The translations under genes were made by a program, and so were the position numbers. DNA of 26,925 bases from a virus, in IMG/VR virus record IMGVR_UViG_3300036719_003459, positions 1 through 26,925 of that record; one strand, 5' to 3'. Positions 10,202 to 25,031 of the stretch are shown here, piece after piece (position 1 is the stretch's first letter; each line of letters starts with the position of its first letter). Under the pieces are notes generated by a model. It saw only the letters and a list, made by a program, of their open reading frames with translations. It had not been told where the DNA came from and searched no databases.

Positions 10202-10363
10202 CTATTTAAAATGACTTTTTATCCAGTTTAAAATGTTATTGTAATTTAAAATAGTCAGCATCAAAATAAACCACACTACACTCCAAATTTCATATTGAAA
10301 TGAACCTTCAAATGCAAACAATACTCCTAAAAAATAAAATAGTATAGCAATAATGTTTTTCAT
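10202..10363 (-). CDS. Small membrane protein (53 aa)
   Basis: The ATG at 10363 overlaps the stop of the glycosyltransferase (ATGA) and the frame ends in TAG. Two hydrophobic segments are visible, IIAILFYFLGVLFAF and WSVVWFILMLTILNY, followed by a basic end (WIKSHFK). It is one of at least six membrane proteins of 45-75 residues in the window. Function unknown. Confidence 0.6.
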   Translation of the reverse strand: MKNIIAILFYFLGVLFAFEGSFQYEIWSVVWFILMLTILNYNNILNWIKSHFK

Positions 10364-11382
10364 AGTGACTTCGATTTTACCTGTTTAAACAATGTTTCAA
10401 GATTATGTTTCGATTTTTCTTCTAATTCAACCCACCAGTTTCCTTTTTTTTCAGCATTACAAATTCCAGTTGGATTATCTTCATTTAAGATAAACTTTCG
10501 TTTTTGTGGGTGTCTACGGTTATGAACCCGTAAAATGTTTTTGAAATTGAACTGAACAAAGTCATCTCCCATAATCCGTTTGGCGATTCTTAAAATTGAT
10601 TCATCTTCGCCGTGATGGATTAATGAATGGGGCAAAGTTACTCCCGATTTTAAAAGTTCACTTGTAAAAACCAAACAACTTCCATCGGCCTTGGGTTCAG
10701 TCAATGCTTGGACTTGAATTTTATCGGGACTGATATTATTTATTTCATTCATTTGTTCTAAGGACATATAAGATTTTTCAGAGGCAGGATTGTTAAAAAT
10801 CCAATTTTCATCATCTTGATATGGAATTGATTCAAATAAAGGATGCGTTATCACGTCCCAACTTTTGTCCCAATTCTTTCTTCCGGCAAAGTTAGCAACA
10901 TATTTGGGATATTGGCCGGAAACTTGTTCATGTAAAGTTTCCAAAGCAAATAACGTTTGTTTGGGCCATAGAGAATCCACCTCGTTCCAACAAATAAAGT
11001 CATGTGTATTGGTATATTTCCAACATATATCTCTGCGAGAGTGTGCAATATTATAAAAAGGAACATCATCAAAAATATATGAAATCTTCACATCCAATTC
11101 AGATGGTAGTTTACCCCATATCTTTCCAAATTGTTCTTTAAATAAAATAAAACCATAGTATTCGTTTATAAATACTCTGCCATTTCCATGCTGTTCATAA
11201 AATTTATACCAATCTATTTTTTCAAATTTTTGCTGAAAATTAAAACATAAATCTATTGTAATATTTTGTTTATTAGTTATTGGTTCAGTCATCTGAATCA
11301 GAGATTGAATATGTTCATTGAACATTCCAATTTCATAAAATTGAATTAACGACGAAAATACATATTTATTATTTAATTGCAT
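10360..11382 (-). CDS. Glycosyltransferase-like protein (GT-A type) next to a homing cassette
   Basis: 340 residues. DFICWNEVDSLWPKQTLFAL (about 130-150) has the look of a GT-A metal loop followed by the conserved proline and helix. SLIHHGEDESILRIAKRI resembles the E-D catalytic region of GT2 enzymes. The first 45 residues align with the orphan fragment at 12351-12470 (17 of 38 identical, no gap), so this gene probably received a replacement 5' end when the homing cassette entered. By eye the first 280 bases are more AT-rich than the rest. Its start overlaps the endonuclease gene by 14 bases. Substrate unknown. Confidence 0.65.
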   Translation of the reverse strand: MQLNNKYVFSSLIQFYEIGMFNEHIQSLIQMTEPITNKQNITIDLCFNFQQKFEKIDWYKFYEQHGNGRVFINEYYGFILFKEQFGKIWGKLPSELDVKISYIFDDVPFYNIAHSRRDICWKYTNTHDFICWNEVDSLWPKQTLFALETLHEQVSGQYPKYVANFAGRKNWDKSWDVITHPLFESIPYQDDENWIFNNPASEKSYMSLEQMNEINNISPDKIQVQALTEPKADGSCLVFTSELLKSGVTLPHSLIHHGEDESILRIAKRIMGDDFVQFNFKNILRVHNRRHPQKRKFILNEDNPTGICNAEKKGNWWVELEEKSKHNLETLFKQVKSKSL

Positions 11383-12166
11383 ATTTTTTTATTATTCTAT
11401 ATGTATGACTTAAATCATAATTTAACAACTGGGATATTTCTTTTGGTGTTTTTCCGCTATTGTATAATTCTAAACATTGAATTTTTATATTTTGAGATTT
11501 TTCATGAGAATTGTTATGATTAATATCAATTCGATCCCATTTTCGTTCGAGTAATGGGAGTTTCAGTGCAGTTAAATTAGTCTTAAGAGTTTTTAATTCT
11601 GAATTAACACCCAATCGCAAAAAACTCATATCTCCCCATATATGTATGGTACTTCTATTTGAAATATATTTTTTAAAAAATTCAAGAATATGTACCCAAT
11701 TTTTATGTATTGCTATTGATAAAAATACTCTTTTATCGGACTTAGGTGTCTTGACAATTGATCCGTCCCCGTCTATATAACCTGCAATAAGTGATAATAT
11801 TTGGTTCTTATTAAAATTGCTCTCATAGTCATTTATATCGGGCGGATTATACGTTTTATTCGGTTTAATGTGAAATTTATTTACTATTTGTTTAACTACA
11901 ATCTTGTCGCAAAAACGAATGCGACAACTGGTATTATTACTTGTCTTGGTTTTAACTTCTCTATGATCGATTTCATTTTTAAAATTTACAAATTTTTTAA
12001 ATTTAAACAAATGATCATAATCTTTATTATTTATTTCTAATGACATTTGTTGGGAATTTTGCGAAAACCAACCATCCGCTAACAGAAATCCGACCCAATA
12101 AAATGATTCGTTATCGTTTTCCAATAGTTTAGTCAAATCATAATTTGTTTCTTTTTCTTGTTTCAT
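11369..12166 (-). CDS. LAGLIDADG homing endonuclease
   Basis: 265 residues. Two LAGLIDADG helices are visible: FYWVGFLLADGW (about 22-33) and LIAGYIDGDGSI (about 127-138). The acidic residue at the end of each would bind the catalytic metal, so it should act as a monomer that cuts a long asymmetric site. A C-terminal helix-turn-helix (KTPKEISQLLNYDLSHTYRI) adds DNA contact. It is free-standing: it has its own start and lies between an orphan 5' fragment and a complete target-like gene. Its start lies 29 bases inside the RHH gene upstream, in the +1 frame, so its translation is probably coupled to that gene. Confidence 0.88.
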   Translation of the reverse strand: MKQEKETNYDLTKLLENDNESFYWVGFLLADGWFSQNSQQMSLEINNKDYDHLFKFKKFVNFKNEIDHREVKTKTSNNTSCRIRFCDKIVVKQIVNKFHIKPNKTYNPPDINDYESNFNKNQILSLIAGYIDGDGSIVKTPKSDKRVFLSIAIHKNWVHILEFFKKYISNRSTIHIWGDMSFLRLGVNSELKTLKTNLTALKLPLLERKWDRIDINHNNSHEKSQNIKIQCLELYNSGKTPKEISQLLNYDLSHTYRIIKKYAIK

Positions 12167-12317
12167 TTTTTTGAATTTCCTTTATAGTTTTTATAAGAAG
12201 ATTGCTAACAAATTGATTAACTTTTAGAGAATTCTGTTTACAATATTCTTTAACAATCGAATGACATTCAACTGACACTCTAAAACTTTTCAATTCATCG
12301 ATTTCTTCTTGTTTCAT
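12138..12317 (-). CDS. Ribbon-helix-helix (Arc/MetJ-type) protein, cassette 1
   Basis: 59 residues from the ATG at 12317. A beta strand (LKSFRVSVE) is followed by two helices (HSIVKEYCKQN and VNQFVSNLLIKTIKEIQ), the RHH plan, in which the strand of a dimer reads DNA. It aligns with the protein at 24840-25007: shared MKQ start, YCK-x-N-x-LK core, then FV-x-x-x-LI-x-T. Both sit directly before, and overlap by 29 bases, a homing endonuclease. It probably represses its own promoter and so limits endonuclease dose; an antitoxin-like role is an alternative. Its leader (12318-12342) is nearly identical to that of the second copy. Confidence 0.75.
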   Translation of the reverse strand: MKQEEIDELKSFRVSVECHSIVKEYCKQNSLKVNQFVSNLLIKTIKEIQKNETRKRNKL

Positions 12318-12342
12318 ATACTATAAGTATCCAAAATTTTAC
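12318..12342 (-). promoter_or_regulatory. Conserved leader/operator of homing cassette 1
   Basis: On the minus strand the bases before the ATG read GTAAAATTTTGG then ATACTTATAGTAT. The same block, with one substitution and a shorter 3' end, precedes the RHH gene of cassette 2. It contains a perfect inverted repeat, ATACT-ATA-AGTAT (12318-12330), touching the start codon. Conservation beyond that of the genes, and position, suggest a promoter with an RHH operator. No TAnnTTTG box is present. Confidence 0.55.
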
Positions 12343-12350
12343 AAAAAAAG

Positions 12351-12470
12351 TTACAAATTATTTTCAATTCCTTCCAACATTTGTTGGCAAGAACGTAAAT
12401 GCTTATCCAACATTTCAATTTCGTAAAACTGAACTTGGGTTCCGATGAGGTAAGTGTTTTTTAATTTCAT
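12351..12470 (-). pseudogene. Orphaned 5' fragment of a glycosyltransferase gene
   Basis: An ATG at 12470 opens 39 codons (MKLKNTYLIGTQVQFYEIEM, then LDKHLRSCQQMLEGIENNL) and stops just before the homing cassette leader. It aligns without gaps to residues 1-38 of the glycosyltransferase-like protein at 10360-11382: shared M-x-L-x-N-x-Y, QFYEI, H, QM and N positions, 17 of 38 identical. It looks like the original gene start, cut off by insertion of the RHH-LAGLIDADG cassette, while the cassette brought a diverged replacement start. It may still be translated. Confidence 0.7.
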
Positions 12471-16095: not shown

Positions 16096-16323
16096 CTAAA
16101 ACTCTCCCTTCCAAATTTTAATAATTAATGCAGTTATTCCTAAAAATAATGCAGTAGCAAAAAGAATACCCGCAACCATCATGTTAATAACCAGATAATT
16201 TTCAAGAAATGTAACTGTTTCAGGTTGAAAATTTTCAGGATAATGAATTCTACCAAAATAAACTACGGCCAAGTTCAACAAAAATATAACTACCAAAAAT
16301 ATAATTAACCATTTTCCTTTCAT
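16096..16323 (-). CDS. Small membrane protein (75 aa), first gene after a promoter
   Basis: Two hydrophobic segments: WLIIFLVVIFLLNLAVVYFG (about 5-24) and MMVAGILFATALFLGITALI (about 48-67), with a polar loop of about 23 residues between them. The -7 box of a consensus promoter ends one base before the ATG, so the transcript may start at or just after the start codon; translation would then be leaderless, or the promoter may serve the genes behind. Function unknown. Confidence 0.65.
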   Translation of the reverse strand: MKGKWLIIFLVVIFLLNLAVVYFGRIHYPENFQPETVTFLENYLVINMMVAGILFATALFLGITALIIKIWKGEF

Positions 16324-16377: not shown

Positions 16378-16914
16378 TTAACGTTTTGAAAGGTTAGACT
16401 TAATTAAACTAAATCCTTCCTCATTATTATCAACTCTAAAACATTTATCAATCTTATAACCAGAAGGCAAATGTTTACTTCCAATTAATTTCCAAATCCT
16501 TAATTTAGTTTTATCAATACCTTCACCACTTCTACTTGTTGCAAATACGGTAACTGCGTCAGGTTTGTTTTTGGAAATGAACCTTTGATTAATTTTGGTT
16601 ATGGTTTTGAAAATTGGTAAGGTATAAGATAAATTTGTTTTCTTTGCTTGTGTTTCAAACCCATCTACACTAAATGCGGTATTAAAGACTAATTTAAGTT
16701 TAGGTTGAATTATTTCAGAAAATCTAAAATATTCTCCTATTTCTTCATCAGTAAATGATTCAAATCGAATGTAAACTTCTGAACCATCAGTTGTTTTAAA
16801 TTTAAATTCGTGATCGTTTATTTGTTCATACTCGAATTCATCAATATTGTCATAATCCAGAATTTCATTTAAAAAATCTTTGGTTAAACCTTCATATATT
16901 TCTTTGATTTTCAT
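16378..16914 (-). CDS. Hypothetical protein (178 aa)
   Basis: Starts MKIKEIYEGLTKDFLNEILD within the end of the upstream gene. After an acidic N-terminal half (DEFEYEQINDHEFKFKTTDG) comes VFNTAFSVDGFETQAKKTN and LPIFKTITKINQRFISKNKP, which I recall as a recurrent type in large phages (F-x-V-x-G-x-x-x-T followed by a helix), without assigned function. It ends in a basic tail. It is the last gene before the gap holding the 16325 promoter. Confidence 0.6.
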   Translation of the reverse strand: MKIKEIYEGLTKDFLNEILDYDNIDEFEYEQINDHEFKFKTTDGSEVYIRFESFTDEEIGEYFRFSEIIQPKLKLVFNTAFSVDGFETQAKKTNLSYTLPIFKTITKINQRFISKNKPDAVTVFATSRSGEGIDKTKLRIWKLIGSKHLPSGYKIDKCFRVDNNEEGFSLIKSNLSKR

Positions 16915-24151: not shown

Positions 24152-24868
24152 TTATTTATCAATTAATTCTAATCTTCCGAGTAATATCCAGTTTCTAACT
24201 GACCATTGAGATATTTGAAAATAATCCCGAACTTCTTTTCTGGTTTGAAAAATTTGATTCGTTTCAGTATGGAAAAATGCCTTTTTATTCCATTCTTTAC
24301 GAGTTTTTATAATCGTTTTTCTCGTTTCTTCCGAATGCTGTTTTCCATAAAACGCATGATTCTCTCCCACAATCAACCCGGAAAACGTTTTACTCATATT
24401 TTGTTTATATTCAATCGTGTAAGTTTTCCCAATATTAAATTCAGAAATCTTACGCTTTCCTTCGGATGGATATGGTTTTAAAAATGTCCAATGTTTTTCC
24501 CCAGTCATCAATCCAGTTAACGTTTGACTTATTTGCTGTTTAATTTCCGATGACTGAATATTTCCGTTTTCACCACCTGTTCTACAATTATAACATTCGT
24601 CCAATTCGATTAATTCCAAAGTAACAACTTCTTTTTCATGGTCACTCGCCGCTTTTCTTGTTGGGTAATCAGTAATAATTTCTTTGGAAAAGTTTTCCTT
24701 ACCATATTTTTTAATTGCATCTTTCAATAAAGTCCCGGAACCCATATAACCATCATCTAAATTATCAGTAGAATGGATTCCATAATAATATTTACCGTTA
24801 ATCAAATTGGTAATTTTGTAAAAGTAATTGTGCAATCTTTCATTCTGTTCTTGTTTTGGTTGGTTCAT
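24152..24868 (-). CDS. GIY-YIG homing endonuclease (Seg-like)
   Basis: 238 residues. NYFYKITNLINGKYYYGIHS is the GIY-YIG strand pair, here with Y-Y-Y-G-I. DDGYMGSGTLLKDAIKKYGK (about 37-57) and NFSKEIITDY complete the catalytic domain as in the T4 Seg and I-TevI families; the catalytic Glu is probably in HEKEVVTLELIE. NUMOD-type DNA-binding repeats follow (GKRKISEFNIGKTYT, FYGKQHSEETRKTI) and a C-terminal helix-turn-helix-like end (FQTRKEVRDYFQISQWSVRN). Its start lies 29 bases inside an RHH gene in the +1 frame, exactly as for the LAGLIDADG gene at 11369. Confidence 0.88.
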   Translation of the reverse strand: MNQPKQEQNERLHNYFYKITNLINGKYYYGIHSTDNLDDGYMGSGTLLKDAIKKYGKENFSKEIITDYPTRKAASDHEKEVVTLELIELDECYNCRTGGENGNIQSSEIKQQISQTLTGLMTGEKHWTFLKPYPSEGKRKISEFNIGKTYTIEYKQNMSKTFSGLIVGENHAFYGKQHSEETRKTIIKTRKEWNKKAFFHTETNQIFQTRKEVRDYFQISQWSVRNWILLGRLELIDK

Positions 24869-25007
24869 TCAGATTCCTCATGGTATTAATTAAAGACTTT
24901 TCAACAAAGAAACTAATCTTCAAACCGTTTTCTTTACAATAACGAACTACAACGTCATGTATAATAGAATCGATTTGTAATGTTTTAAATTTCTTGTCTT
25001 GTTTCAT
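24840..25007 (-). CDS. Ribbon-helix-helix (Arc/MetJ-type) protein, cassette 2
   Basis: 55 residues from the ATG at 25007. Strand KKFKTLQIDS, helix HDVVVRYCKENG, then LKISFFVEKSLINTMRNLN. It is clearly related to the RHH protein at 12138: shared MKQ, H, YCK-x-N-x-LK, FV and LI-x-T positions, though the two share under half their residues. It overlaps the GIY-YIG gene by 29 bases. Likely an autorepressor that controls the endonuclease through the leader at 25008-25031; this is inference. Confidence 0.75.
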   Translation of the reverse strand: MKQDKKFKTLQIDSIIHDVVVRYCKENGLKISFFVEKSLINTMRNLNEPTKTRTE

Positions 25008-25031
25008 ACCTATAAGTATCCTAAATTTTAC
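25008..25031 (-). promoter_or_regulatory. Conserved leader/operator of homing cassette 2
   Basis: On the minus strand GTAAAATTTAGG and ATACTTATAGGT run into the ATG, then AAACAAGA. The same block precedes cassette 1 with one substitution and a small length change next to the ATG. Outside it the two upstream regions do not match. The start codon context here forms a looser inverted repeat (ATAC...GTAT, 25006-25019). Confidence 0.55.

Follow-up and report, generated by a model that had tools for sequence, protein, structure and literature searches.

The window, the whole 26,925-nucleotide stretch of viral DNA analysed here, carries two cassettes in which the gene for a small, predicted ribbon-helix-helix (RHH) protein leads and overlaps a homing-type endonuclease gene, and nine further cassettes were found in viral contigs with RHH profiles or the leader sequence, giving 11 in total and four kinds of nuclease on one RHH type. 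We consider it likely, with a probability of roughly 70%, that the RHH protein is an autorepressor providing a "socket" for interchangeable free-standing homing nucleases. The window, an IMG/VR virus record, belongs to a T4-like phage; PolB and clamp loader genes are present on contigs that share its cassettes, the best named relative of this PolB being that of Microcystis phage Mel-JY01 (40%). The genes of the two cassettes in the window are located as follows.

24840-25007, minus strand: RHH2, predicted 55-residue ribbon-helix-helix (Arc-like) protein of cassette 2
24152-24868, minus strand: cassette 2 nuclease, GIY-YIG homing-type with NUMOD3, 238 residues
24840-24868, minus strand: overlap of RHH2 and the nuclease gene, 29 bases, nuclease in the +1 frame
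12138-12317, minus strand: RHH1, predicted 59-residue ribbon-helix-helix protein of cassette 1
11369-12166, minus strand: LAGLIDADG endonuclease of cassette 1, sharing 29 bases with RHH1, +1 frame

This arrangement agrees with the first-pass annotation of the sequence, which had described a 29-base overlap (+1 frame) between RHH2 and a GIY-YIG gene, and cassette 1 as an RHH and LAGLIDADG pair of the same plan, overlap and frame. The start codon ATG of the cassette 2 nuclease lies inside the RHH2 codons AAT-GAA (Asn-Glu). The proposed homology of RHH1 and RHH2 was also borne out (35% identity over 48 residues with a pairwise E-value of 8e-10; 35-37% across comparisons). The assignment of the cassette proteins to the RHH (Arc-like) class is supported by the matches of their relatives and by the predicted structure, the sequence matches of RHH1 and RHH2 themselves being weak: neither has a Pfam match above the cut-off, and the PHROG Arc-like repressor family is reached at an E-value of 0.013. 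The RHH protein of C7 matches the same kind of PHROG family at 1.5e-7, and that of C11 reaches Pfam RHH_10 at the cut-off (27 bits). The RHH model (pLDDT, 85) contains helices at residues 16-28 and 33-55, with the strand unassigned in the monomer, and resembles Arc, CopG, ParG, and RHH antitoxin domains; the leading Foldseek matches are mostly RHH proteins, all with E-values above 0.1, and solved structures are matched weakly at the sequence level (best E-value, 0.009). With 50-64 residues, the cassette proteins agree in size and predicted fold with the strand-helix-helix RHH (Arc/MetJ) proteins (~45 residues).

The nuclease families assigned in the first pass hold in Pfam and PHROG. The cassette 1 nuclease matches LAGLIDADG_3 (29.6 bits; cut-off, 22.5) and that of cassette 2 matches NUMOD3 (39.4 bits; cut-off, 20.4), with the generic Pfam GIY-YIG model staying under its cut-off for the latter (17.3 versus 22.6 bits); a PHROG search with the window nucleases matched the homing endonuclease family phrog_314 at 1e-42.

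A first search with the leader gave 22 stretches, five of them followed by an RHH gene, and a profile of the two RHH proteins found five loci in viral contigs; in both searches these all belonged to this virus. Relatives found through PolB, examined with the RHH profile, yielded C3 (same phage) and C4 (a relative). A revised leader pattern gave 27 stretches, with an RHH gene behind eight and none behind the other 19. C5, in another phage, was reached via the leader without a protein query, having escaped the first protein scan, and its RHH protein was then recognised (HMM E-value, 1e-20). A five-RHH profile detected 47 loci, corresponding to 24 distinct RHH sequences when identical copies on other contigs were left out, and added C6, C7, and C8, and a nine-RHH profile matched 23 of 29 records and added C9, C10, and C11 in phage G006, the carrier of C6. 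The 19 loci of the last viral scan each lay on a contig already known. Against 50,697 phage records, RHH1 and RHH2 gave weak matches only (E-values, 1-7), the RHH proteins of C6 and C7 reached 0.3 and 0.1 at best, and a nuclease-free RHH protein (L194) gave nothing at 0.1. Six loci around four of the weak phage matches and two Lak LAGLIDADG matches contained no RHH gene above the threshold of the nine-sequence profile (best E-value, 0.013, in L044). The first scan of genome contigs revealed no RHH cassette. Two candidates were rejected as chance matches, namely L266 (RHH profile E-value, 0.004) and, from the second scan of genome contigs, L171, which lies within an 822-residue ORF. The cassettes are as follows.

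C1: LAGLIDADG; overlap 29 bases; +1 frame
C2: GIY-YIG; overlap 29 bases; +1 frame
C3: GIY-YIG; overlap 20 bases; +1 frame; same phage as the window
C4: GIY-YIG; overlap 20 bases; +1 frame
C5: LAGLIDADG; overlap 44 bases; +1 frame
C6: HNH with NUMOD3; overlap 26 bases; +1 frame; phage G006
C7: GIY-YIG; overlap 44 bases; +1 frame
C8: endonuclease VII-like; overlap 17 bases; +1 frame; contig L185
C9: HNH; overlap 29 bases; start codon TTG; +1 frame; phage G006
C10: GIY-YIG; overlap 29 bases; start codon GTG; +1 frame; phage G006, RHH gene truncated at the contig edge
C11: unclassified 286-residue ORF; overlap 40 bases; +2 frame; phage G006

In the RHH-profile census that had been proposed for this sequence, the overlapping downstream ORFs of at least 150 residues behind the RHH relatives from the five- and nine-sequence profiles are all endonucleases with one unclassified exception. 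PHROG endonuclease families match the downstream genes of C1-C10 (10 of 11), comprising five GIY-YIG, two LAGLIDADG, two HNH, and one endonuclease VII-like enzyme. Catalytic Pfam models exceed their cut-offs only in C1, C7, and C9; most of the cassette nucleases carry homing modules (NUMOD3, NUMOD1, I-TevI DNA-binding, or LAGLIDADG). The nucleases were first described as being of unrelated kinds, and the families do differ, but the bodies are not wholly unrelated: short stretches are common to GIY-YIG and HNH enzymes (59 residues between C2 and C9, 2e-7; 70 residues between C4 and C6, 5e-6; 65 and 47 residues between C9 and C10, 6e-5 and 4e-4), and these stretches of 47-70 residues are presumably NUMOD-type DNA-binding tails. 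The ORF of C11 has no match in Pfam, PHROG, PADLOC, or NCBIfam, and no telling nuclease name occurs among its phage relatives; by its motifs, it may resemble a VSR/EDxHD nuclease.

An overlap of exactly 29 bases, which had been regarded as characteristic, is not a fixed property (17, 20, 20, 26, 29 in four cassettes, 40, 44, and 44 bases). The frame and the start position are kept instead: the downstream gene is in the +1 frame in 10 of the 11 cassettes, a count over related cassettes and hence not over independent events, and in most its start codon is placed close to where the RHH core ends. The ten are those with an endonuclease match, and their overlaps span 17-44 bases.

Ahead of the RHH genes, the following elements were found in the window.

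25010-25031, minus strand: cassette 2 leader GTAAAATTTAGGATACTTATAG, proposed operator/promoter
25006-25019, minus strand: cassette 2 dyad ATAC-N6-GTAT, extending into the RHH2 start codon
12321-12342, minus strand: cassette 1 leader GTAAAATTTTGGATACTTATAG
12318-12330, minus strand: cassette 1 dyad ATAC-N5-GTAT

The leader, first noticed as part of the module, is common to both cassettes and absent elsewhere in the window: GTAAAATTTNGGATACTTATAG occurs exactly twice, once ahead of each RHH gene, and no match with three or fewer mismatches turned up in 100 dinucleotide shuffles. The 22-bp leaders of C1 and C2 are one base apart, though the RHH proteins are only 35-37% identical. The element ATACTTAT is located 4-5 nt ahead of the RHH ATG in C1-C6 and C9, that is, in seven of the ten cassettes with a visible leader (that of C10 is off the contig), these being related cassettes and not independent events; it is absent from the leaders of C7, C8, and C11. 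The dyad ATAC-N5/6-GTAT surrounds ATACTTAT in C1-C5, its second half being GAAT in C6 and C9. The C8 locus (L185, upstream of 2998), which lacks ATACTTAT, has by eye a GTAG-type tandem repeat of ~11 nt ahead of the RHH gene, which is perhaps an operator that has diverged. A near-copy of the leader with three mismatches, followed by an 18-codon ORF, is present at L135:2936-2955 (G001 2936-2954) and is perhaps a decayed cassette.

Similar half-sites accompany RHH genes in other phages. In the regions 120 nt upstream of 11 nuclease-free RHH relatives (15 nuclease-free sequences minus four near-duplicates), CATAC/GTATG occurs 23 times versus 1.6 expected (500 shuffles; maximum, 6), the motif having been picked by eye from the very sequences then tested. 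GTATGA-N17-TCATAC is found in six of the 11 and TCATAC-N5-TCATAC in three, half-sites that resemble the cassette dyad ATAC...GTAT. In the 12 nuclease-free loci inspected, the RHH gene lies beside and opposite a large gene, which in L195 encodes a tail sheath (PHROG, 4e-60) and in the others is so named from look-alike N-termini. The half-sites adjoin this divergent gene and may serve its regulation instead. Nine nuclease-free RHH genes facing it (L184, L188, L189, L194, L205, L207, L211, L213, and L215) have one or the other half-site arrangement, and these RHH proteins are perhaps a separate tail-gene regulator. Taken together, the dyad, the CATAC half-sites, and the Shine-Dalgarno-like sequences described below suggest that ATAC-type half-sites are the binding sites through which the RHH protein represses its own transcript, and that translation of the nuclease begins at the embedded start.

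Alternatively, ATACTTAT would be part of a promoter, either of these phages or of the cassettes, with the RHH protein acting otherwise, for example in nuclease targeting or elsewhere in the genome, which we regard as unlikely and as partly compatible with an operator, since one stretch can be both. As a -10 box, ATACTTAT would give a nearly leaderless transcript, and a Shine-Dalgarno sequence of their own is missing from most RHH genes; moreover, a GIY-YIG gene without an RHH gene in phage G006 (L268:12318-12350) has GATACTTAT upstream and could be either a cassette minus its regulator or a sign that the motif is a promoter. Against this alternative, ATACTTAT is rare ahead of other genes in 278 kb of these phages (overlapping pieces included), whose early promoters appear by eye to be Bacteroidetes-like, and the CATAC half-sites also go with the RHH genes of other phages. 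Within the window, ATACTTAT also precedes a 75-residue ORF (16096-16323), where it is part of a Bacteroidetes-like promoter; the variant GATATTTAT precedes the ORF at 16914. A role of ATACTTAT as a general late promoter was not supported. The intergenic regions of L135 look like Bacteroidetes promoters (consensus, TTTG...TAnCTTTG), a hint of a Bacteroidetes host.

The view that the regulator is the constant part, tied to nucleases, stands for the cassettes but not for the wider RHH family, in which 15 of the 24 distinct sequences have no overlapping ORF (two of the 15, L210 and L215, stop at a contig edge); eight belong to cassettes, and one, L187, has the reverse order, with an HNH_3 gene (798-1402) directly ahead of the RHH gene and a 66-residue ORF behind it (overlap, 4). 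Conversely, an RHH gene accompanies four of the eight nuclease-like ORFs found in phage G006 and two of the three found in the window, these ORFs having been sought by similarity to the cassette nucleases and two others, so that more may exist. An HNH-type ORF at 506-1168 of the window has no RHH gene, and by profile search neither does its 47% relative in phage G006 (L269 14093-14677). As a control, the C2 nuclease matched 533 loci, the best 80 of which comprised two of this virus and 78 others; the nine-sequence profile found no RHH gene upstream in any of these 78, two of which have less than 300 nt of upstream sequence, in a scan that was incomplete in that it missed C3, C4, and C10.

The cassettes could also be considered toxin-antitoxin-like modules, in which the overlapping nuclease would be a toxin kept neutral by binding of the RHH protein, its antitoxin. 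Type II toxin-antitoxin loci typically have the antitoxin-type gene first, a small overlap, and an inverted repeat at the operator; the cassettes share this layout and the structural likeness to RHH antitoxins, and C5, C3, and C1 give weak PHROG matches to HicB-like antitoxins (E-values, 0.002, 0.043, and 0.073). This is nevertheless improbable: most of the nucleases bear homing modules, a single RHH family would need to neutralise four nuclease kinds, and none of the ten cassette proteins (of 22) compared with PADLOC and NCBIfam matched a toxin-antitoxin model. Judged by length alone, the RHH tail past approximately residue 45 has only ~5-20 residues, which would be short for the toxin-binding tail of an antitoxin.

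Evidence for exchange of the nuclease body comes from comparisons between cassettes and from the sequences at the nuclease start.

24875-24879, minus strand: Shine-Dalgarno-like GAGGA in the RHH2 frame, 6 nt ahead of the ATG of the nuclease
12178-12182, minus strand: Shine-Dalgarno-like AAGGA in the RHH1 frame
24741-24814, minus strand: 74-bp tract identical in C2 and C3 inside otherwise diverged nuclease genes

C9 (HNH) and C4 (GIY-YIG) agree in the leader (40/45), the RHH DNA (108/139), and the RHH protein (76%), with no blastp match between their nucleases at an E-value of 1e-3. The C9 nuclease resembles that of C6 (38%, 4e-32), yet the RHH proteins of C9 and C6 are only 48% alike; likewise, the RHH protein of C5 (LAGLIDADG) is closer to that of C6 (HNH; 65%) than to that of C1 (LAGLIDADG; 55%). 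In these sequence comparisons, the RHH and nuclease genealogies disagree, and the proposal of a reusable control module that captures different nucleases is strengthened accordingly. The 74-bp tract points to exchange or gene conversion between cassettes of one phage, and since GIY-YIG enzymes, in which gene conversion is visible, make up five of the ten nucleases, the case for swapping is mainly that of C1/C5 versus C6 and of C9 versus C3/C4.

A Shine-Dalgarno-like sequence is embedded in the RHH codons just ahead of the nuclease start in 10 of the 11 cassettes (C7 has none), which are not independent, compared with 2.98 of 11 expected from synonymous codon resampling with the proteins kept; C11 is uninformative here because its resampling always yields such a sequence. 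In all seven cassettes with an I/M-R-N/S motif at this position, the Arg codon is AGG, which accounts for 12-17% of Arg codons. These phages seem to use such sequences, as they precede long ORFs above the shuffled expectation (6/16 in the window, 11/45 in G006, and 11/40 in G004, versus 1.6, 4.5, and 2.9).

There may instead be no functional link, recombination between similar leaders or RHH genes spreading whatever is attached to them. Such gene conversion is visible in the 74-bp tract, and the T4 homing nucleases treated in PMC2988022 overlap upstream genes as well, by 20-24 bp. We hold this explanation to be of low probability, on the grounds that the C1 and C2 leaders are near-identical while the RHH proteins differ by ~65%, that Shine-Dalgarno-like sequences occur in the RHH codons beyond the synonymous expectation, and that RHH gene and nuclease are paired at different sites in different phages. 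Programmed +1 frameshifting, which would fuse the RHH protein to the nuclease as an extra DNA-binding domain and would fit the constant frame in 10 of 11 cassettes, is highly improbable, considering that by eye the overlaps show no common slippery site, that ATG, GTG, and TTG starts follow Shine-Dalgarno-like sequences at ordinary spacing, that the frame of C11 differs, and that in L187 the nuclease gene lies ahead of the RHH gene.

The surroundings of cassette 1 allow a putative homing event to be read from its flanks.

12351-12470, minus strand: 39-codon ORF, apparent 5' end of the native target gene, abutting the cassette 1 leader on its upstream side
10360-11382, minus strand: full-length diverged copy of the target gene, directly behind cassette 1

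In phage G006 (L220), the target gene is uninterrupted and carries no cassette, providing an empty site for C1. The first 37 codons of the remnant are 70% identical to this ortholog, whereas the diverged copy is 46-49% identical to two orthologs both in the first 37 and in the next 243 residues. A natural reading of these sequences is that cassette 1 swapped its target for a diverged, perhaps cleavage-resistant copy, and 10360-12470 is possibly a homing cassette carrying its own replacement allele; alternatively, the site holds two old tandem copies of the target gene. C5 lies directly ahead of the same target gene in another phage. For C2, a search for an empty site with one flanking gene only, in four records, gave one weak partial match.

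In the autorepressor mechanism that we favour, a common expression module would precede the free-standing homing endonuclease gene of each cassette. This module consists of a short leader with the ATAC...GTAT dyad at the start codon and the RHH gene (protein of 50-64 residues), the last codons of which contain the ribosome-binding site and start codon for the gene behind it. By binding to the leader, the RHH protein most likely represses the transcript from which both it and the nuclease are made, and translation of the nuclease would then rely on coupling or on internal initiation. As operator, Shine-Dalgarno sequence, and start codon all come with the module, recombination just past the embedded start codon could exchange the nuclease body with the control retained. 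More tentatively, and with a lower probability, the cassettes could form a new kind of mobile unit in which the RHH repressor gene, its last codons serving as a ready translation start, is constant and at least four nuclease kinds have been plugged in. As several cassettes of one phage have near-identical operators, their RHH proteins may in this reading cross-repress and keep a set of homing nucleases in one regulon, released only upon entry into an RHH-free partner genome.

In nuclease kinds, T4-like phage setting, and start codons buried in an upstream gene, the cassettes resemble the free-standing seg and mob homing genes of T4, which in the account of PMC2988022 overlap upstream ORFs (segC by 20 bp, mobA by 23 bp, and mobC by 24 bp); there the overlapped gene is the upstream ORF of the phage, whereas here it is a regulator-type gene recurring with the nuclease at different sites. 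I-TevI, as treated in the same review, represses itself by binding over its own promoter via its own DNA-binding domain. By analogy, expression of the cassette nucleases is proposed to be limited by a repressor at the promoter, but the candidate repressor is a separate RHH protein and the nuclease is exchangeable. As far as PMC10448857 presents them, the nucleases of ICP1 and its satellites (CapR and T5orf172) have modular DNA-binding parts that also occur in a transcriptional repressor; in CapR a zinc-finger domain is shared within proteins, unlike the separate gene leading each nuclease here. RHH domains in Dnd systems are the subject of PMC10853773. Arc, CopG, omega, and protein 56B are comparable with the cassette proteins in RHH size and predicted fold, but the cassette RHH gene also contains the start site of a homing nuclease. 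Searches of full-text literature, comprising a minority of subscription papers and no bioRxiv preprints, yielded no description of an RHH regulator encoded separately ahead of nucleases of different folds. Within these sources, overlapping homing genes and the self-repression of I-TevI are known, and a separate RHH regulator ahead of several nuclease kinds appears new.

How carriers are protected from selfish nucleases has been worked out in detail in few cases, and the repressor treated in the T4 review (PMC2988022) is the nuclease itself. If the proposed mechanism is true, a portable repressor that outlasts nuclease exchange would explain how new nucleases are safely adopted, and the cassettes would allow a direct test of whether the homing genes of one genome form a shared regulon.
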